Shown in pieces: positions 17,742-30,871 of a DNA stretch of 64,000 nt. Source of the DNA: Lyngbya confervoides BDU141951. GTDB taxonomy: Bacteria; Cyanobacteriota; Cyanobacteriia; Thermosynechococcales; Thermosynechococcaceae. A program made the translations under genes and the position numbers. The stretch is taken from assembly GCF_000817775.3 (NCBI RefSeq), contig NZ_JTHE03000024.1, positions 1-64,000 of the forward strand, in the 5' to 3' direction. The stretch's first letter is position 1. Each line of letters opens with the position of its first letter. The notes under the pieces were generated by a model, which was not told the origin of the DNA, made no database searches, and saw nothing but the letters and a program-made list of their open reading frames with translations.

Positions 17742-20700
17742 TTAGGCCCTCATCGAGGTGAAACAGGTTGAAATATGACTCAACAGAGTTTCTAAATCGA
17801 AGGGTTTCGCCAAAAAAGAGCTGGCACCCGCAGCCAGGGCGGTTGCCTCATGGGTTGGAACACCGCTGAGGGCCACAATATAAACGGCGGGGTCCATGGC
17901 CTTCAGGCGACGGATCAAGGTAAAACCATCCATATTCGGCATCATCAGATCGCTCAGAACCAGCTGAATTTCTGACCGATGCTGCTGGTATTGTTCTAGG
18001 GCTTCTACACCATCTTGTGCCAGCAAGGTGCGGTAATGGTGGCTTTCGAGAAAGGATTGTAGCATCATGCGCACGATTTCCTCATCTTCCACCACTAACA
18101 CCAAGGCCTCGTGAGTTTCTGACATCAACGCCGGGGAAAGACCTGCCAAGTCGGAGTCCGGGACGCTGTCCTCCATCTGCGGAAAATACACTTTAAACTG
18201 AGTTCCCTGGCCCACCTGACTGACAACTTGCACAAACCCCTGATTTGCCTTGACCAGACTGCGCACCGTGGCCAGACCTAAGCCAGTGCCCTGTCCCGGA
18301 GGTTTGGTGGTAAAGAAGGGATCAAACATTCGCTCCTGGACCTCGGGCGTAATCCCCGTCCCGGTATCAGTCACAGTGATCAGGGCATAGCGGCCCACCC
18401 GAGCATCCAGCGTTTGAGCCGCCATGGCCTCATCTACCCAGACATTCTGGGCGGAAATGCCCAAAGTGCCGCCGTTGGGCATGGCATCGCGCGCATTCAC
18501 ATAGAGATTCATAACAATCTGGTGTAGATAGGTGGGGTCAGCCAGCACCTTGCCCAGAGCGGGCTGAGTGGCCCCTGCGGTAGGAATCTCAACCTGTATC
18601 TCGATGGATTTCGGAAAGCTTTGCTGCACAATCTTGATTTCTTCTTGCAGGAGAGCGGCCAAATTCACCGCGGTTTGCTGGCCCTGGCTGGCCCGTGTAA
18701 CTGACAAAATTTGTTTAACCAGGTTCGCTCCTCGCTTGGCGCTGGATTCGATAATTTGCAACTGTTCTATCCCCCTGGCATCCAATCCCCGCTGCGTCAT
18801 CTGCAGCACTTGAGTCATGCCCAGAATAGGGGTGAGCATATTGTTGAGGTCGTGGGCAATGCCGCCCGCCAGAATACCCAAGCTTTCTAGGCGTTGGGCC
18901 TGATAAAACTGAGCCTCCAGATTTTTCTTTTCGGTGATATCGGTGGAGATACCGCAGAGGGCGTAGGGAGTTCCGGTGGCATCAGACAGGGGAAATTTGA
19001 CGGTAATGAAGCTGTGGATGCCATCGGGCAAGGGCAACGTGTCCTCAATTTGCAGCAGTTGACCGGTTTCTAAAACAGCTCGATTTTGGGTGGCAAACCG
19101 ATCGGCCATCTCCGGGGGCCACACCTCCTGCAACCCTTTGCCCACCAGATCCTGGGCCGAGATGGACAGCAGGGCGGCATAGCTGTGATTCACGAGCAGG
19201 TGTCTATTTTGATGATCGAGCAGGTAGATAACCGCCGGAGAGTGATCCAAAATGGCTTGGAGCCGCTGTTCGCTCTCTCGCAGCGCCTGTTCAGCCTGCT
19301 TGCGTTCTGTAATATCTTCGTGGGTACTGACGTAACCGACGATTTCTCCGGCTGTGGATTGAATGGAGGCTACATGGGCAGAAATCCAGCGGATTTCTCC
19401 CTGGGGCGTGAGTAACCGAAATTCAGGCAGGCGATCGCTGTCCCCCTTCAGCACCCTTTCCCAAATCACCCCCAGCCTGTGCCGATCTTCCGGGTGAACG
19501 GCTTGCAGCCAACCGTTCCCCAGACAATCTTTTAGGCTGAGCCCCGAGAGTGCTAACCAGCAGGGATTGACATACAGGCAAATCCCATCGGCATTGGTCT
19601 GACAGATGCCAATGGGAGCCGCTGCGCTCAGGGAGCGAAAGCGCGCTTCGCTGGCTTCCAGAACTGCCTGCATATGCTGCCGGGCAGAGAGTTCATCGCG
19701 CGTTTGTTCGTAGAGTTCTGACTGCTGACTGGCAATTCCCACCTGGATCGCCAGGCGCTGCAGAAGTTCAATTTCAGCCGGTTCCCACTGGCGAGGAGCG
19801 TCACACTGGTGGGTGATCAGCAACCCCCACAGATCATGACCTAGCAAAATCGGCACGGCCAAACTCGCCTTCACCTGAAACTGCTGTAATAGATCAACAT
19901 AGCAGGGCTCTAGACCCGGCTGGTTGATATCCCGCAAGATGGAAACGTGCCCCTGAAGATAGGGCTGGATAAACTGGTCTGCGAAGCAGGGGTCATCAAT
20001 GGTGGTGGATTGCAGAGCAGGCCATTGTTTGCCTACCGATTCCATGATCACATCGCCCTTCCAGTCTGGGCGGAAACGAAAGATCACAACGCGATCGCAC
20101 GCTAGCCATTCTCGGACCCGCTCCACAGTGCAATGGAGAACCTGATCTAACTCCAGGGACTGGCGAATTTCCTGGGCAATATCAACCAGCAGTTGCTCCT
20201 GGCGGATCTTCTGTTGTAAAGCCAGTTCAGCCTGTTTGCGATCGCTAATATGAATCCCCACCGTGGTCACCTGCCAGCAAGCAGCCGCCTCATCCCACTG
20301 GGAGGTCAGGGTTTCGGAAATCCAGCGCACGCTATCGGTTTTATCCCGGAAGCGGTACTCAATCGTGAAGCTCTGCTCGGCAAAAATCCGCTCAAAGGCG
20401 GGCATGATCACCGTTTCCACATCTTCCGGCAGCACCCGCGATCGCCAGAGTTCCTGGTCTCCGATGATTTCAGCCTGAGAGTAGCCGTAAACACTCTCAC
20501 AGCCCAGGGAAATGAGTTTGTGAACGTAGGTGCCATCGGCATAGGCAGCCAGCTCACCAATGGCCACGCCCACATTGTCAAGAATGCGGCTGAGTTGGGC
20601 CTCGGATTGATACAGAGCGGCTTCGGCCTGTTTGCGATCGGCATCTAGTCGTTTCCATTGGCTAGTCTCCAAGACAGTGCCCACCAGTCGATCAATCTTG

Positions 20701-21896
20701 CCTGCAGCATCACGCACCGGTGAGAGGGTGGTGAGGAACCAGACGGGGCGATCTTGATAGACAAAATGATTCTCGAAGACCATGCAGTGATTCGCCTGCA
20801 CACACTGCTGATAGTGCTGGCGAAATCGGGAACCGATTTCGGGGCCAAACACCTCCTCAGGAGTTTTCCCTTGCACATCTACCAGGGCAATGCCGGTCAT
20901 CTCCTGAGCCGCGCGGTTGTGACTCACATAGCGAAAATCTCCCGTTTCGGCCACCGCCACCACAAAAATAGGCTGCGCTGCCCCATCGTAAATGCTGCGC
21001 AAAAAGGCTTCCCGCTGGCTTAACTCCGCCGTTCGTTCTGCTATCCGATCCGTGAGTTTCTCCTGCACAGCCTGCAGTTCCTGATTTTTCTGCTGCAGTT
21101 CTGCCTGCGTCGCGTGAAGCTGTGCCAAGGTTTGTCGCAACTCTTCGTTGACAGCCTTCAGTTCCGCCATCTGCAGCGTGGCGGCGGACTGCTCCGGCGG
21201 GGAAAACGCCTTGTCTCCATAGAGAGGATTCAGGCGATAGCCCTGGCGATGCAAGGTTTTGATAAAGTCCTCCGGTGCCCCGGCGGCTTTTAGCTTTTTA
21301 CGCAACTTCTTGAGATGGGTGCGTACCGTTTCATTGCCAGGAGCCTCCAGAGCACTCCAGCCTTGTTCCACAATGGTGCGAGCATTCAAAATATTGGGGG
21401 CATGGCGGAGCAACACCTCCAGCAGGCTATATTCCTTCGGGGTTAGCTGCAACAGCGTTGCCCCATAGCTCACCTGCAAACGACTGGGGTCCAGGGACAG
21501 AGATCCCCATCGCAGGACCGGAAAAGCTTGCAACGCACCCCGACGCAGCAGAGACTGGATGCGAGCCAGTAATTCCTCCGCATCAAAGGGTTTAGTCAAA
21601 TAGTCATCGGCTCCAGCATTGAGAGCAGTCGCCTTCGCCTTGGCCTCCGCCTCCTGTCCAGTCAAGAGCAGAATCGGGCTTTGTATCCCGCTGGTGCGCA
21701 GCTGCTGACAGAGTCTGACGCCGTCCATTCGGGGCAACCCAATATCCAGCAGCATCAGATCGTAGCGATAGGCCTCAGCCATTTCCAACCCCGCTAGGCC
21801 ATCGGCCGCAACGTCCACTGAGTAGTGACAGCTCACCAGTAACGCCTCAATGGCCTGGGCTACAGGGGCTTCGTCTTCCACCACCAAAATTCTCAT
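17742..21896 (-). CDS. Giant hybrid: DNA-binding response regulator fused to PAS/cyanobacteriochrome-GAF histidine kinase with C-terminal receiver
   Basis: 1384 aa. Order: receiver 1 (1-118, Asp51 in LMLLDIGLP, Lys102); OmpR-type winged helix (about 128-224); coiled coil (about 240-292); PAS (about 297-415); PAS (about 432-555); GAF (about 565-735); PAS (about 745-865); PAS (about 877-990); HisKA with His1015 in GGIAHDLNN; HATPase with [10 protein letters not shown] (1134-1143) and GTGLGLAT; receiver 2 with Asp1316 in LVLSDLMMP. The GAF contains a D-x-C-F motif (Cys637) and a second Cys at 665, exactly 28 residues later, as in DXCF cyanobacteriochromes, and the region [16 protein letters not shown] typical of phytochrome-like GAFs. 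No membrane segment, so cytoplasmic. The ATG at 21896 (MRILVVEDE) is used; a GTG at 21905 is the alternative. The N-terminal half alone would be a complete response regulator. Confidence 0.93.
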
Positions 21897-22170
21897 GACC
21901 TCCACCCTGTGAATGATGAGCGGCCTGTTTAATCCTATTATCGGCCTTCACAACATCTTCACGAAAACCGCTCCATAATTCTTATCGATGCTACAGCCGG
22001 TGCGTCCCTCTGGTGAACCCAGCCTCTCTAAGGGCGATCTAGAGGGACTGTACGGCTGTAATCTGCCCAAAACAAAGAAAATGAACCCCCTTACCCTGGA
22101 GTGATTGCCCTGGAGTCATTTTAATCGTTACCACGGCCAAGAACTTGATGGGGGGGTTCAGGAGTTAGAG

Positions 22171-22644: not shown

Positions 22645-22980
22645 ATGCTGAATAGGGACTGTCCAGCAACAATAGATTTGGCTTGGTGGATGCAGATTGA
22701 GACCCGAAATCCGGTCGCAATTTACTACTTTGGTCCCTTCGAAGATCAAATTCAGGCTGAAGCATCAAAATACGCCTACATATCAGACCTGGAGGCAGAA
22801 AATGCCAGCATTCTCTGTGCAAAGGCTGTTTTCTGTCAGCCTCGACAGCTGACTATATACCAAGATGACCTCAATATTCACGACCTGGAACAAGCATCTT
22901 TCTGGCTATTCATGAATTTGCTGGACGAACCTGAAGATCGAGGCCTGCATCAGGAAGAGCGCGAAGCCCTCACCTTCTAG
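22645..22980 (+). CDS. DUF1816 family protein
   Basis: 111 aa. The pattern AWWMQIETRNPVAIYYFGPF, AYISDLEAENA and PRQLTIY fits DUF1816, a small cyanobacterial family with some likeness to the CpcD/linker fold and found near phycobilisome or stress genes in some genomes; its function is unknown. It is followed after about 30 nt by a hairpin, GGGATCG (23012-23018) with CGATCCC (23026-23032), without a T tract. Confidence 0.8.
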   Translation: MLNRDCPATIDLAWWMQIETRNPVAIYYFGPFEDQIQAEASKYAYISDLEAENASILCAKAVFCQPRQLTIYQDDLNIHDLEQASFWLFMNLLDEPEDRGLHQEEREALTF

Positions 22981-24482: not shown

Positions 24483-25043
24483 TCAAAGCAAATGGGGACG
24501 CGATTTCCACTGGGTTTGGGTGAGACGATAGAGGCAGTGCTCGCGGAGGATATGGCCAGGGGGAACATTGGGATGCTCGAAGGTTTCCGGGTCGCGGATC
24601 ATGCCTAGACGCTCCATCACCGCCTGCGATCGCCAATTCAATAAACTGGTAAAAGACACCACCTCCGGGATCTGTAGATCTTCGAAGGCAAAGTTCAGGG
24701 ATGCCTGGGCCGCTTCAGTGGCATACCCTTTCCCCCAGTAGGGCCTTGCCAGTCGCCAGCCCACTTCGACGCAGGGTTTGCAGGGTAGATCTGCGGCGGG
24801 GATATGCAGCCCCACATAGCCAATAAAGGGAACCCGGCGGGGAAGTTCAACGGCCCAAAATCCCCAGCCTCGCACGGTCATGAGCCGTTCACAGCGATCG
24901 GCCAGGGCGTCGCTCTCCTGGCGCGTGAGGGGAGCAGGGAAATATCGCATCACCTCTGGATCCGCATTGAGGGCCGCAAAATAGGGGCGATCGCCGGGCT
25001 GCCACTGGCGCAACAGCAGACGGGCGGTAACAAGGGCAGTCAT
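24483..25043 (-). CDS. GNAT-family N-acetyltransferase (RimJ/RimL type)
   Basis: 186 aa. RimJ-like features: start MTALVTARLLLRQWQ, the strand WGFWAVEL, EVGWRLARPYWGKGYATEA (acetyl-CoA binding motif A, Q/R-x-x-G-x-G/A as RPYWGKGYA) and the C-terminal VMERLGMIRDPE. Likely substrate is an amino group of a protein or small molecule. The ATG at 25043 abuts a 15-bp tandem repeat; the frame stays open through the repeat to 25409, adding reiterated YFPAV/YFSAV pentapeptides, but the upstream part does not look like protein. No ribosome-binding site is evident at 25043. Confidence 0.82.
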   Translation of the reverse strand: MTALVTARLLLRQWQPGDRPYFAALNADPEVMRYFPAPLTRQESDALADRCERLMTVRGWGFWAVELPRRVPFIGYVGLHIPAADLPCKPCVEVGWRLARPYWGKGYATEAAQASLNFAFEDLQIPEVVSFTSLLNWRSQAVMERLGMIRDPETFEHPNVPPGHILREHCLYRLTQTQWKSRPHLL

Positions 25044-25118
25044 TGCAGGGAAATAAATTGCAGGGAAATAAACTGCAGAGAAATAAACTGCAGGGAAATA
25101 AACTGCAGAGAAATAAAG
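25044..25118. repeat. 15-bp tandem repeat, five units, abutting the GNAT start codon
   Basis: Five adjacent 15-bp units, TGCAGGGAAATAAAC and variants (G/A at the sixth base, T/C/G at the last), starting at 25044, 25059, 25074, 25089 and 25104. Fifteen is a multiple of three, so all units keep the reading frame of the acetyltransferase gene, where they would encode YF(P/S)A(V/I). The array occupies the place where a ribosome-binding site should be. Confidence 0.92.
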
Positions 25119-25400
25119 GGTGAACGTTGATCTTGATCCTAGGACGATCAAGCCAAAAGCGCCGCCAAATGGCGACGCTTTCACGGGAGGATCAGACCGT
25201 TTAGCCCTGGGGAACAAAGTTGAAAAAGTCTCTTCGGGGAGAGGGGCATCCTTGCCACAGGCGGGTTTAGGATCGCTCGTTTGCGTCTTATCCTTTCGGA
25301 ATAAGTTGCCTTTATCGGAGACTGGCGAAGGGCTAATCTTTTTGGGGGGAAGTAGCCCAACGCCTTTTATCCTAAGGGGTATGAAAGCATCTGTCTTCCG
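25119..25400. other. Non-coding 5' region of the GNAT gene with a strong hairpin
   Basis: A hairpin at 25156-25181 has arms AAAGCGCCGCC and GGCGACGCTTT (10 of 11 pairs, loop AAAT). On the minus strand it is followed by TTTTGG, so it may be a weak terminator or a leader structure. A further inverted repeat GGGCTA/TAGCCC spans about 25328-25356. No gene is supported here. Confidence 0.45.
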
Positions 25401-25426
25401 AAAAACCACGGATTGGCAGCCAATCC
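25401..25426 (-). terminator. Probable rho-independent terminator of the RND efflux operon
   Basis: Read on the minus strand: GGATTGG, loop CTG, CCAATCC, four bases, then TTTTT. The stem is 7 bp and perfect. It lies about 120 nt past the stop of the RND transporter gene, the last gene of its operon. Confidence 0.55.
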
Positions 25427-25543: not shown

Positions 25544-28500
25544 TCAAAGGGTGCGTCGCTGGGTGGCAACGGCCTCAGAAGCAGGTCGGGTTGCGGCCAC
25601 CCAATCCTCAGACTCCAATCCGTCTCCAGTTCCATTCTGAGAATCCGGCGGTGGCGATGGCGGACGGAGGCGGGATTCCGCTGACTTAATCACAATGTAA
25701 AGCACAGGCGCCACAAATAGACTCAGAATCGTGGCAATGCACATCCCCCCCACAATTGCAGTGCCCAAGGACTGGCGCGCTGCCGCCCCTGGCCCGGTGG
25801 CAAAAAAGAGCGGCATGGCCCCAATCACCGTCGACAGCGCCGTCATTAAGATCGGGCGCAGTCTCTCCTTAGCCGCCTCAATCACCGCGGGAATAATCTT
25901 CATGCCGCGATCGCGCTGCTGATTGGCAAACTCCACGATCAAGATGGCATTTTTACTGGCAATGCCAATCAGCATCACAAAGCCAATTTGGGTATAGACA
26001 TCGTTGGCAATTCCCCGCAGGACCAAGGCCAAGAGCGCCCCCAACATCGCCAGGGGAACGGTCAACATGATAATCAAGGGATCCACGTAGCTCTCATACT
26101 GGGCCGCCAGGGTCAAAAACACAAAGACAATCCCCAGGGCAAAAACAATCACGCCTTGACTGCCCGACTCAATCTCCTCTAGGGATAAACCCGACCATTC
26201 AAACCCAAAGCCTCGCGGCAAAGTTTCCCTAGCCACTGCTTCCATGGCAGCGATCGCCTGGCCTGAACTCTGCCCCGGAGCCGCCGCGCCGTTAATCTCA
26301 ATGGCCCGCGAGAGATTGTAATGATTAATAATCGATGGACCACTGGTTTGGGTGACGCTCACCAGACTGCTGAGGGGAATCATCTGTCCTGTCTGCGATC
26401 GCACGTAGAGCTGTCGAATATCCTCGGGATTGGATCGAAACGCTTGGTCCGCCTGAACATAGACCCGATAGGTGCGCTGAAACTGATTAAAGTCATTGAC
26501 GTAGGTGGACCCCAGAAAAATCCGCAGGGTATCAAAAATATCCGCAATGGACACCTGAAGGGCACTGGCCTTGGCGCGATCCACCGTCACGGAAATTTGG
26601 GGGGTGTTGGCACTAAAGTTGGGGCGCAACCGCTGTAGAACCGGATTTTGGGGAGTGGGATAGGTGCTCGCCCGTCCCATGAATTCTCCCAGGGTTTGCC
26701 CCATCACCTCGAAGCCCAACCCGACCCGATCTTGCAGATAAAACTCGAAGCCCCCTATGCTGCCCACTCCATTAATCGCTGGGGGGGCAAAGGGAATGAC
26801 CGTGGCCTCCTGAATCCCCATGAGCTTGGGAAACAAACGCTCAATCACCGCGGCAGCCGATCCCTGGGGACCGGGTCGCTGATCCCAGGGCTTCAGGGTT
26901 GAAAAGATAATTCCGTTGTTGGGGGTCGATCCGCTGAAGCTAAATCCGCCCACGGCAAAAATATTCTGGATCTCCGACTCTTCCTTGAGAATAGCCTCCG
27001 CCTGTTGGAGAACGCTTTCAGTGTAGTTCAGAGAGACCCCCTCTGGGCCTTGCACAATGGTGATGAAGTAACCTTGATCCTCCTCGGGCAGAAAGGCCCG
27101 CGGGACAAAGTTATACAGCCCATAGGTGAGCACCAAGGCCACCGCAAACCCAGCCAAGACCAGGCTGCGATGCCGGGTGATGTAGGCCACCGAAACGCCA
27201 TAGGTTTGGCGGGCCCGATTAATCAATCCGTTAATGGCGTTAAAAAACCAGTGGTTGGGTGTCTGCCCCTGACGCAGCAGCAGCGCGGAAAGGGTTGGGG
27301 TCAAGGTGATGGCATTGAAGGTGGAAACGGTAATGGCGCAGGCAATGGTGAGGGCAAACTGCTGGTAGAGCTGGCCTGCGGTTCCTGGCAAAAAGGCCAC
27401 CGGCACAAATACGGTCACCAACACAATCGAGGTGGCAATCACCGCGCCCAGCAAATCGTCCATGGAGGCGATCGCCGCCGCCACGGGCTGCATGCCCTCT
27501 TCCTGAATGCGACGGGTAATATCCTCCACAATCACGATGGCATCATCCACCACCAGTCCCGTGGCGAGGGTGAGGCCAAACAGGGTCAGGGTGTTAATGG
27601 AAAAGTCCAGGAGCTTAATAAAAATAAAGGTGCCCACCAGGGCCACGGGAATGGCAATTGAGGCAATCAGGGCCGATCGCCAGTTTTGCAGAAACAGATA
27701 AATAATGACGATCACCAGCACAATGGCCAGCAACAGCGAAGTAATCACCTCCCTGGTCCCGGCCTCAATGAAGCGGGTAGTGTCAAAGGCAATGTCGTAT
27801 TTCACGCCGGGGGGAAAGCTGGCCGACAGGGTTTCAATTTCGGCCCGAACGGCGTTGGCCACATCCAGGGCATTGCTGCCGATCTGCTGCTGAATCCCCA
27901 GTCCCACGCCCCGGCGTGAAACGCGATCGCTGGCCATAAACCGGAGCAAGGATCCATAGTTTTCCGCGCCTAGCTCAGCCCGTCCCACATCACGCAGCTT
28001 GGTCAAGGTGCCATCTTCAGCGGTGCGGATCACCAGTTCATTAAACTCGGCGGCATCTTCTAATCGCCCCAGAGCCGTCACGGAATATTGATATTGCTGG
28101 TTGGCATCCACGGGCGGCTGACCCACTTGCCCAGCCCCCACTTGTAGATTCTGAGCTTGCAAGGCCGCCACCACATCCTGGGGTGTCAAGCTTCGACTGG
28201 CCAGACGATTGGGATCGAGCCAGACGCGCATGGCATATTTCCGCTCACCAAAAATGCGCACATCATCGACTCCCTGAATCCGGCGCAGGGAATCAACTAG
28301 ATAGAGGTCGGCATAGTTACTTAAATAGACATCGTCGTAGCGATCCTGTCCAGCCTCATCGGCTTCCGCGTAGAGTCCAATGGCCAACAAAAAGTTACTG
28401 TTGGATTTATTCACCCGCACCCCAGTTTGTGTCACAGGACCGGGCAGACGCGAAAGCACACTGGACACCCGATTCTGCACGTCGACAGCGGCAAGATCTT

Positions 28501-28810
28501 GATCGCTCCCGAGATCAAAGGTGAGATTAATATTGCTGGTGCCATCATTGGCGCTGGTGGACTTCACGTAGCGAACGCCTTCGAGTCCATTCAACTCCCG
28601 CTCTAGGATATTGGTGACCGTGGTCTCCACCACCTCCGCATTGGCCCCCACATAGTTGGCATTGACAGAAACCTGGGGCGGGGTAATGTTGGGATATTGG
28701 GCCACAGGGAGGGTGGGAATAGCGGCCAGGCCCAAAAGGGTCACAATGATGGAGCAGACCGTCGCGAACACGGGCCGCTTGATGAAGAAATTAGCGACGG
28801 AGAGAATCAT
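25544..28810 (-). CDS. RND multidrug efflux transporter, HAE1 (AcrB/MexB) family
   Basis: 1088 aa inner-membrane pump. N-terminal FFIKRPVFATVCSIIVTLLG, the proton-relay segment GLVVDDAIVIVEDITRR in helix 4, GIASKNAILIVEFANQQ (with the conserved Lys) in helix 10, and two large periplasmic loops identify the hydrophobe/amphiphile efflux class. Substrates would be hydrophobic or amphiphilic toxins. The start overlaps the stop of the fusion-protein gene by 4 nt (ATGA), giving translational coupling. No TolC-type outer-membrane gene is nearby, so the third component must be encoded elsewhere. Confidence 0.96.
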   Translation of the reverse strand: MILSVANFFIKRPVFATVCSIIVTLLGLAAIPTLPVAQYPNITPPQVSVNANYVGANAEVVETTVTNILERELNGLEGVRYVKSTSANDGTSNINLTFDLGSDQDLAAVDVQNRVSSVLSRLPGPVTQTGVRVNKSNSNFLLAIGLYAEADEAGQDRYDDVYLSNYADLYLVDSLRRIQGVDDVRIFGERKYAMRVWLDPNRLASRSLTPQDVVAALQAQNLQVGAGQVGQPPVDANQQYQYSVTALGRLEDAAEFNELVIRTAEDGTLTKLRDVGRAELGAENYGSLLRFMASDRVSRRGVGLGIQQQIGSNALDVANAVRAEIETLSASFPPGVKYDIAFDTTRFIEAGTREVITSLLLAIVLVIVIIYLFLQNWRSALIASIAIPVALVGTFIFIKLLDFSINTLTLFGLTLATGLVVDDAIVIVEDITRRIQEEGMQPVAAAIASMDDLLGAVIATSIVLVTVFVPVAFLPGTAGQLYQQFALTIACAITVSTFNAITLTPTLSALLLRQGQTPNHWFFNAINGLINRARQTYGVSVAYITRHRSLVLAGFAVALVLTYGLYNFVPRAFLPEEDQGYFITIVQGPEGVSLNYTESVLQQAEAILKEESEIQNIFAVGGFSFSGSTPNNGIIFSTLKPWDQRPGPQGSAAAVIERLFPKLMGIQEATVIPFAPPAINGVGSIGGFEFYLQDRVGLGFEVMGQTLGEFMGRASTYPTPQNPVLQRLRPNFSANTPQISVTVDRAKASALQVSIADIFDTLRIFLGSTYVNDFNQFQRTYRVYVQADQAFRSNPEDIRQLYVRSQTGQMIPLSSLVSVTQTSGPSIINHYNLSRAIEINGAAAPGQSSGQAIAAMEAVARETLPRGFGFEWSGLSLEEIESGSQGVIVFALGIVFVFLTLAAQYESYVDPLIIMLTVPLAMLGALLALVLRGIANDVYTQIGFVMLIGIASKNAILIVEFANQQRDRGMKIIPAVIEAAKERLRPILMTALSTVIGAMPLFFATGPGAAARQSLGTAIVGGMCIATILSLFVAPVLYIVIKSAESRLRPPSPPPDSQNGTGDGLESEDWVAATRPASEAVATQRRTL

Positions 28811-30267
28811 GGGTTGGCTTGAATGGGGGCGCAGTTTTGCAATTGCAATAGCCCAGAGGTCACGATGCGTTCACTCGGATTGAGGCCTGCGGACACCTCC
28901 TGGGCATTGCCCACAATGGCCCCCAGATCCACGGGCTTTTGCACCGCAACGAGCTGATCGGGCGCGGGCGGAGGGCCTTGTTGCTCAGCTTGGCAGCTAG
29001 ACTCGCCGTAGGGCTGGGCCACAAAGACAAAGTTCTTCCCTGCCAAACGACTGATGGCCGTGGTGGGAACCAGCACCCCGCGGCGACTCTCCCAGATAAT
29101 TCGGGCCGTAATAAATTGGTTGGTCCGCAGTTGTCCGCCCACATTGCTAAAGTTGGCCTTCACCTGCACCGACTGGGTCTGGGGATTGACATTGGGGGAA
29201 ATAAACGACACCTGGCCGCTTTTTAAAACCTTGCCCTGGTTATCGATCAGCTGCACCGGCAGGTTTAAAGCCAGCCGCGCCGCATCTTCCTGGGGAATGT
29301 CAATATTGACCTCCAGCATCTGATTCTGGGTCAGATCCAACAAAGCCGTTGAGGAGGCCACCAGATCTCCGACCTTGGCGTTGATTTCCCCAACAACTCC
29401 GGTAATTGGCGCGACGACCGTGTAATACTTCAGCTGGGCCTGCGCCTGGTTGGCAGCGGCAATGGCCGTTTCTCGCTGCTGGCGAGTGCGCATCACATTG
29501 GCCTGGGCGCGGGCAATGGTGGCCGCCTGGGCGCTGATCTGGGCCTTAATTTCAGCCAGGCTAGCGCGGGCCTGATTCCAGGCCGATTCCTTCTCTTGCA
29601 GACTCTGTAAACTGGTGGCTCCCTGGGCTTGGAGTTGACGAAAGCGGTCGTACTCCTGGCGCTTAAACTGCAGATCCGCCTCCCGCGACGCCTGGGTGGC
29701 CCTGAGAACCTCTAGGTCGCGGCGGGCACTCTCTAGTTCGGCATTGGCAGCAGCAATTTCGGCGTTGGCCGTATTGATTGCAGCCTGGCTTCCCGCCACC
29801 TGAGCCTCCTGTTCCGTGGCATCTAGGCGCAGCAGAGGTTCATTGGCCTCAACGCGATCGCCTGGGCGCACGTAGATCTGACTGACCCGCCCGCTGGCCT
29901 GGGGCTGAATTTGCAGGGATTTGCGCGATCCTAAATTCGCCACGTAGTCGGTGCTATCTTGCACTGGTCGAAGGGTAGGCTGGGCCAGCGAGACCCGCAT
30001 GGGGCCAAACCCAGGGGGAGCCCCGCCTTGGGTCAGGGGCGCTACAACGCGACCGTACAATAGCCAGGCAATTCCGCCAAGACCCAGTAGCCCCAGGATC
30101 AGATACAGCCATCGGCGGCCGGGGGCTGAGGAATCTTGATCGGACGACTGAGGGCTTTCAAAATCGTCCGATCTGGTGATAGCGGTATCTGCAGGGATGG
30201 GTTCAGCGGATGAGGCCTCTAGCGGCGGATCGTAGGTGGGATGGGGAGGATTTCGAGGAGGATTCAT
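28807..30267 (-). CDS. RND efflux periplasmic adaptor (membrane fusion protein)
   Basis: 486 aa. A cytoplasmic Pro/Ser-rich N-terminus (about 1-48) precedes one membrane helix (about 52-70). It then has a lipoyl half-motif (GRVSQIYVRPGDRVEANEPLL), a long Ala/Gln-rich coiled-coil hairpin (about 155-270), the second lipoyl half and beta-barrel (YYTVVAPITGVVGEINAKVGDLV) and a membrane-proximal domain. It joins the RND pump to an outer-membrane channel. It lies 55 nt downstream of the padR-like gene. A 14-bp duplication includes its start codon. Confidence 0.93.
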   Translation of the reverse strand: MNPPRNPPHPTYDPPLEASSAEPIPADTAITRSDDFESPQSSDQDSSAPGRRWLYLILGLLGLGGIAWLLYGRVVAPLTQGGAPPGFGPMRVSLAQPTLRPVQDSTDYVANLGSRKSLQIQPQASGRVSQIYVRPGDRVEANEPLLRLDATEQEAQVAGSQAAINTANAEIAAANAELESARRDLEVLRATQASREADLQFKRQEYDRFRQLQAQGATSLQSLQEKESAWNQARASLAEIKAQISAQAATIARAQANVMRTRQQRETAIAAANQAQAQLKYYTVVAPITGVVGEINAKVGDLVASSTALLDLTQNQMLEVNIDIPQEDAARLALNLPVQLIDNQGKVLKSGQVSFISPNVNPQTQSVQVKANFSNVGGQLRTNQFITARIIWESRRGVLVPTTAISRLAGKNFVFVAQPYGESSCQAEQQGPPPAPDQLVAVQKPVDLGAIVGNAQEVSAGLNPSERIVTSGLLQLQNCAPIQANP

Positions 30268-30291
30268 GGCAGGGGACTCATGGCAGGGGAC
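30264..30291. repeat. 14-bp tandem duplication over the adaptor start codon
   Basis: Two exact copies of TCATGGCAGGGGAC (30264-30277 and 30278-30291) followed by a partial third (TCACGGC). On the minus strand this gives two ATG codons 14 nt apart. The upstream ATG opens a five-codon frame (MSPLP) whose TGA overlaps the adaptor ATG as ATGA. Confidence 0.85.
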
Positions 30292-30322
30292 TCACGGCAT
30301 TCGCATCTGACCCATCGGGCCG

Positions 30323-30871
30323 CTAGGGAGTGACAGAGGGACCCGTCATCAGGGATTGTTCTCGGGACAAAAGGGTCTGTAGCCATTGCTGTTCATCACA
30401 TAACATCTCCATTCCGCGCTGAACAGCTTGGGATTGGTAAACATCTAGGGGGCCCAGGGGCAAAGGCTTAGAGCGCAATAACTGCTCACGCTCCCAGCAT
30501 TGGGCCAGCCGATGCTGAATGAGCGCAATTCGCTCGCTGGGATCTAACTCCGCAAAAAAGAAGGCTTTGATCATGAATCTCGCCCGACTGTTAACCCAGC
30601 TTTCGTTGGGGGTTTGCAGCATCCGCGATCGCCACCGCTCATGCCCCTGCGCGGTGGTGCGATAAATGATCCGGCTTGAGGCTTCCGGTCGTTCAGAGGT
30701 GGAGGAGAGGGTGGTAATCAGCCCCTGCCGCTCCAGACGACGCAGGAGGGGGTAGATCGCTCCATAATTCACGCTAATACAGGACCCCATGAACAACTCC
30801 AGCATTTTGGTGAGTTGATATCCATGCAGCGCCTCTTTTTGCAGTAACCCAAGGGTGGCTAGCTCCAGCAT
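30323..30871 (-). CDS. PadR-family transcriptional regulator
   Basis: 182 aa. An N-terminal PadR winged helix (LATLGLLQKEALHGYQLTK, INYGAIYPLLRRLERQGLI-type core, here VNYGAIYPLLRRLERQGLI) is followed by a C-terminal helical Vir_act_alpha_C-like domain (about 95-175). PadR proteins are usually repressors released by small hydrophobic ligands. As the first gene of the transcript with the RND adaptor and pump, it most likely controls its own operon, as in other padR-efflux units. Confidence 0.9.
   Translation of the reverse strand: MLELATLGLLQKEALHGYQLTKMLELFMGSCISVNYGAIYPLLRRLERQGLITTLSSTSERPEASSRIIYRTTAQGHERWRSRMLQTPNESWVNSRARFMIKAFFFAELDPSERIALIQHRLAQCWEREQLLRSKPLPLGPLDVYQSQAVQRGMEMLCDEQQWLQTLLSREQSLMTGPSVTP

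Follow-up and report, generated by a model that had tools for sequence, protein, structure and literature searches.

A DXCF cyanobacteriochrome GAF domain in a hybrid kinase fused to an OmpR-type response regulator in Lyngbya confervoides

The 64,000-nucleotide stretch of Lyngbya confervoides BDU141951 DNA analysed here (the window) encodes a protein in which, as judged from its predicted domains, a hybrid sensor kinase is joined to an OmpR-type response regulator. Its GAF domain is a genuine DXCF cyanobacteriochrome (CBCR) and, taken by itself, an unremarkable light sensor; the more interesting feature is the fused DNA-binding part. We consider it probable that the protein is a DXCF photoreceptor controlling a hybrid kinase. 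We propose only tentatively that this single polypeptide is a complete blue/green light-to-gene switch, which having its own OmpR-type receiver would need no separate response regulator.

The gene and its domains are listed in Table 1. The protein has 1384 residues when read from the ATG at 21896, the start favored by the N-termini of relatives, or 1387 residues from the upstream GTG at 21905; ATG numbering is used below. Pfam matches and inspection of individual residues showed that the key residues are intact throughout: the HisKA histidine, the ATPase boxes, the aspartates of both receivers and the winged helix. The N-terminal receiver retains its phospho-acceptor Asp51 (21746-21744) together with Thr79 and Lys102. 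The Pfam scan detected neither an HPt domain in the chain nor a PHY domain attached to the GAF domain.

Table 1 Features of the sensor kinase gene in window coordinates
Feature	Position	Strand	Basis
Whole gene, REC-wHTH-PAS-PAS-GAF-PAS-PAS-HisKA-HATPase-REC hybrid sensor kinase	17742..21905	-	Translation; Pfam scan; end-to-end relative L070
N-terminal receiver, OmpR-type	21555..21890	-	Pfam Response_reg, residues 6-117
Winged-helix DNA-binding domain (Trans_reg_C)	21231..21452	-	Pfam 4.3e-18, residues 152-225; RppA/RpaB-type similarity
PAS 1	20661..21008	-	Pfam PAS families; approximate limits
PAS 2	20226..20597	-	Pfam PAS families; approximate limits
DXCF cyanobacteriochrome GAF domain	19692..20204	-	Pfam GAF, residues 585-725 (8.9e-22); PDB matches; tree; fold
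DXCF motif with second Cys, D635-P636-C637-F638	19983..19994	-	Translation; conserved in 45 relatives
Cys665, canonical bilin cysteine	19902..19904	-	Translation; invariant alignment column
Tyr666, directly after canonical Cys	19899..19901	-	His in most, Tyr in about one-third of dual-Cys relatives
PAS 3	19311..19643	-	Pfam PAS, residues 755-865
PAS 4	18924..19250	-	Pfam PAS_4, residues 886-994
HisKA dimerisation/phosphotransfer domain, His1015 in GGIAHDLNN	18681..18872	-	Pfam 4.7e-08
HATPase_c kinase domain, N and G2 boxes intact	18177..18539	-	Pfam 3.9e-21
C-terminal receiver, Asp1316 and Lys1364 kept	17772..18104	-	Second Pfam Response_reg stretch

The relatives used for comparison were 80 loci from named genomes plus further GAF domains from the family. 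Among the 80 loci only L070, from Synechococcales cyanobacterium C42_A2020_086, shares the arrangement of the window protein. The two proteins align end to end with 51% identity over 1220 aligned residues (receiver 64%, winged helix 55%, GAF 52% and kinase 61%), and both have the DPCF motif and a Cys-Tyr pair; the L070 chain, REC-wHTH-PAS-GAF-PAS-PAS-HK-REC, differs in having one PAS fewer before the GAF domain. We know of no experimental work on L070. No full-length relative was found at 1e-190 in the 28 other genomes of the family, and no plasmid relatives were found. Beside the GAF relatives L045-L048, L051, L053 and L054 no separate winged-helix gene was found, although several of these contigs end close by.

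When 386 cyanobacterial genomes were searched with the winged-helix to PAS stretch, many such winged helices were found to lie in reading frames of 800-1900 residues. Twenty loci (L156-L175) were taken for their long frames, one of them from the window's own genome, and all 20 proved to be REC-wHTH...HK fusions. Like the window protein these have an OmpR-type regulator ahead of the kinase; unlike it, none of the 20 has a recognised CBCR GAF domain, and in most of them another receiver follows the winged helix. Fusions of OmpR-type regulators to kinases are common in cyanobacteria; among the loci sampled, just one other with a CBCR GAF domain, L070, was found. The L. confervoides genome itself carries a second REC-wHTH-REC...HK fusion (L163:1-4401, contig C63), which lacks a CBCR GAF domain.

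In the CcaS/CcaR and RcaE/RcaF/RcaC systems a CBCR kinase acts through an OmpR-type DNA-binding regulator, the components being separate proteins, whereas the window protein is one chain. The open-licence literature searched contained no characterised example of a DXCF CBCR and a fused OmpR-type regulator in one chain.

The domain order suggests how such a protein might work. The GAF domain sits between two PAS pairs, ahead of a complete HisKA-HATPase module, and its state would set the kinase activity. The phosphoryl group would then pass, inside the dimer, from His1015 to Asp51 in the N-terminal receiver that the chain itself carries, and phosphorylation of Asp51 would alter DNA binding according to light color, while the C-terminal receiver (Asp1316) would modulate the signal or drain phosphate. 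As the chain has no HPt domain, direct transfer from His1015 to Asp51 is the simplest route. We infer both this route and the existence of target genes, and we judge the proposal that the sensor controls its own N-terminal receiver to be closely balanced, tilting slightly against. Somewhat unlikely is the alternative that the photoreceptor works, with the kinase signaling to separate response regulators and the REC-wHTH portion being phosphorylated by another kinase. Such an arrangement would fit the presence of N-terminal receivers in many cyanobacterial hybrid kinases and the lack of HPt domains linking the modules, but L070 has kept the same REC-wHTH, GAF, kinase and REC chain (its receiver is 64% and its kinase 61% identical to that of the window protein), which speaks against this alternative.

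Translation bore out the Asp-Pro-Cys-Phe motif of the original prediction, with Cys637 (codon 19988-19986) and Cys665 (codon 19904-19902) exactly 28 residues apart; the same residues are numbered 640 and 668 from the upstream GTG. Two GAF stretches, of 10 and 16 residues, were also found in the translation. In an alignment of 45 relatives the canonical Cys and the Asp, Cys and Phe of the DXCF motif are either fully or more than 90% conserved, the Cys665 column being invariant in the 45 sequences, and the window GAF domain retains the His that is conserved in the LLIxHQC strand. At other conserved positions it has Ser678 instead of Asn, Ala680 instead of Val and Thr695 instead of Ala. IDDPCF lies where extended red/green (XRG) CBCRs have WXDXXL, and the alignment showed that this motif, which together with the lack of a DXCF Cys marks the XRG lineage, is absent from the window GAF domain. 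The comparison with TePixJ called for by the original prediction gave orthologues with C494 and C522, an identical 28-residue spacing. TePixJ (PDB 4fof, 3vv4, 4glq) also shares the fold and the DXCF motif of the window GAF domain, and differs in its Cys-His pair, its chemotaxis-type output and in being only 36% identical.

Sequence, fold and phylogeny agreed on the family. The leading PDB sequence matches are GAF domains of the phytochrome superfamily, nearly all of them cyanobacteriochromes (6oap, 3e-46; NpR6012g4, 6bhn, 5e-37; TePixJ, 5e-34). An AlphaFold2 model of the GAF domain built from 45 window and locus sequences (mean pLDDT 88) gave TM values of 0.92 with AnPixJ (3w2z), 0.90 with 6oap and 0.83 with TePixJ in its blue form (4fof); across the solved CBCR GAF domains, TePixJ included, identity is 30-46% and TM about 0.8-0.9. 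In a maximum-likelihood tree of 114 rows, the backbone of which is poorly resolved, the window GAF domain falls inside the cyanobacteriochromes, the placement that the original prediction had asked to see, and groups with L045, L046, L047, L048, L051 and L070; a six-row inner group within this group has support of 100/96. All seven members have a second Cys and a Cys-Tyr pair, six with DPCF and one with DPCL. The end branch of the window GAF domain is long (0.46 versus 0.15 for its nearest neighbor). We consider it very likely that the GAF domain is a DXCF CBCR carrying a covalent bilin.

Several relatives depart from the motif. L045:793-3984, of CBS-GAF-PAS-PAS-HK-REC layout, has DPCL in place of DPCF followed by Cys-Tyr, and is thus a dual-Cys GAF domain without the Phe of the motif. 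In three CBCR GAF domains (L013:851-1354, L040:771-1277 and L052:5001-5510) D-P-T-F replaces D-P-C-F, so that the second Cys is Thr, with Cys-Tyr present. In the GAF domain at L095:4426-4911 the second Cys is present (DPCL) and the canonical one is replaced by Phe (T-F-H-R), possibly leaving a bilin site that relies on the second Cys only.

The chemistry of DXCF domains, with phycoviolobilin (PVB) and a labile second thioether, has been summarised (PMC11284453). From it we infer the chromophore, colors and direction of switching of the window protein. Phycocyanobilin (PCB) would be attached covalently through Cys665 and most likely isomerised to PVB, and in the dark a second thioether, linking Cys637 to the bilin C10, would give a blue-absorbing 15Z state. 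Blue light would isomerise the 15,16 bond and the second thioether would break, to give a 15E photoproduct absorbing in the green or possibly the teal. The blue/green type named in the original prediction is supported by homology, tree, fold and the bilin pathway of the genome, and we lean toward a dark state that absorbs blue and a photoproduct that absorbs green. A teal photoproduct appears less likely than a green one: of the two trapped-twist positions, which we located in our alignment by our reading of PMC5240096, the helix-4 position is Phe673 and the strand-2 position is Val, and having Phe at only one of the two argues mildly against the teal trapped-twist type.

The original prediction had singled out the Tyr following Cys665 as odd, His being usual, and as a possible sign of altered tuning. 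His is indeed the majority residue, but Tyr is frequent: in our set, which is biased toward relatives of the window and includes several near-identical Thermosynechococcus rows, the dual-Cys rows comprise 63 with Cys-His and 34 with Cys-Tyr, the window counted, and the thinned set used for the tree has 64 and 28, respectively. On the tree there are at least 16 switches between His and Tyr, a count that includes one for the engineered miRFP row. The Thermosynechococcus-group orthologues of SesA (Tlr0924), which we take to be of that genus, read Cys499...Cys527-Tyr with RXXD at 676; the canonical Cys of SesA itself is at position 527. As in the window, these orthologues (L176-L178) have the second Cys in DPCF, the canonical Cys 28 residues later and then Tyr; SesA differs in its diguanylate cyclase output, and the orthologue GAF domain is only 42% identical. 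A second case is the GAF domain of L016 and L025, which from their size and GGDEF-EAL motifs we assume to be SesB-type (Tlr1999, blue/teal) proteins of Thermosynechococcus: it has D-S-C-F and Cys-Tyr and is 44% identical to that of the window, and it differs in its c-di-GMP output and in falling in a separate clade of the tree. The Cys499 and RXXD positions used for the SesA/Tlr0924 match are published (PMC4067208, PMC5871770), as is the cysteine numbering with which the SesA and TePixJ orthologues were compared (PMC4067208, PMC6955287). Tlr0924 has an ordinary blue/green photocycle, and the preparation that was studied contained about 80% PVB (PMC4067208). As Cys-Tyr is frequent, recurs on the tree and is present in this blue/green lineage, Tyr666 is an ordinary natural variant and by itself no sign of altered function; the suggestion that it marks altered tuning found no support. 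We had considered miRFP670nano as a natural Cys-Tyr precedent and rejected it, because its Tyr is the laboratory-selected H87Y, which stacks on biliverdin (PMC6336887). As that Tyr touches the chromophore, Tyr666 may nevertheless contribute modest tuning.

These data also bear on a reading we regard as unlikely, in which the DXCF domain keeps its PCB, with little or no conversion to PVB, or is unusually tuned with the aid of Tyr666, to give a yellow/orange or teal photoproduct. PVB content and photoproduct color do vary among DXCF GAF domains (PMC5240096, PMC11284453), and the stacking of Tyr on biliverdin in miRFP670nano (PMC6336887) and the Phe at the helix-4 position would each be in keeping with it. 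However, the Cys-Tyr of the SesA/Tlr0924 orthologues, together with the blue/green photocycle and high PVB content of Tlr0924 (PMC4067208), speaks against unusual tuning, and the Val at strand-2 in our alignment mildly against teal.

The genome encodes PcyA, phycocyanobilin:ferredoxin oxidoreductase (327.8 bits, NCBIfam cut-off 206), and two heme oxygenases. Hence, phycocyanobilin should be available. With this pathway added to homology, tree and fold, the DXCF CBCR membership claimed in the original prediction stands. Two PHY-containing proteins show that the genome has phytochromes too. It is very improbable that photoactivity has gone from the GAF domain, through absence of a bilin or a dead pocket, leaving it a purely structural linker while the PAS domains do the sensing: the long branch and the few departures from conserved residues would suit such a loss, but the domain keeps its two cysteines, the LLIxHQC His and the Asp and Phe of the DXCF motif, the entire sub-clade retains both cysteines and the bilin pathway is present. 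Although GAF domains occur in large numbers and have many kinds of ligand, and of the 11 GAF matches in the genome only that of the window has D-x-C-F, an ordinary non-photosensory GAF domain with cysteines placed by chance is ruled out for practical purposes by the PDB matches, the fold and the tree, which put the domain among CBCRs and apart from the other GAF domains of the genome.

The neighbors of the sensor gene encode an amino-acid permease, an MgtC/DUF4010 protein, a DUF1816 protein, an aldo/keto reductase and RND efflux components, and none of these neighboring genes indicates a target. The DUF1816 gene (22645-22980) is upstream of the sensor gene and divergent from it. Genes for an AcrB-type RND efflux pump, an HlyD-type adaptor and a PadR-type regulator lie in a row at 25544-30871 on the reverse strand. 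At 25044-25117 a 15-base unit is repeated in tandem (4.9 copies) within the 5' part of the frame for a GNAT acetyltransferase (24483-25409); the gene probably starts downstream of this array.

The window thus adds one more DXCF CBCR, and the Cys-Tyr pair is seen to be a common natural variant, found also in the lineage of a well-studied blue/green sensor. The protein also unites bilin sensing, kinase and OmpR-type DNA-binding modules in a single chain, an arrangement kept in a second cyanobacterium. If the proposed signaling is correct, it would serve as a compact switch for controlling transcription by light, and would provide a test of how a kinase signals to the receiver of its own chain.
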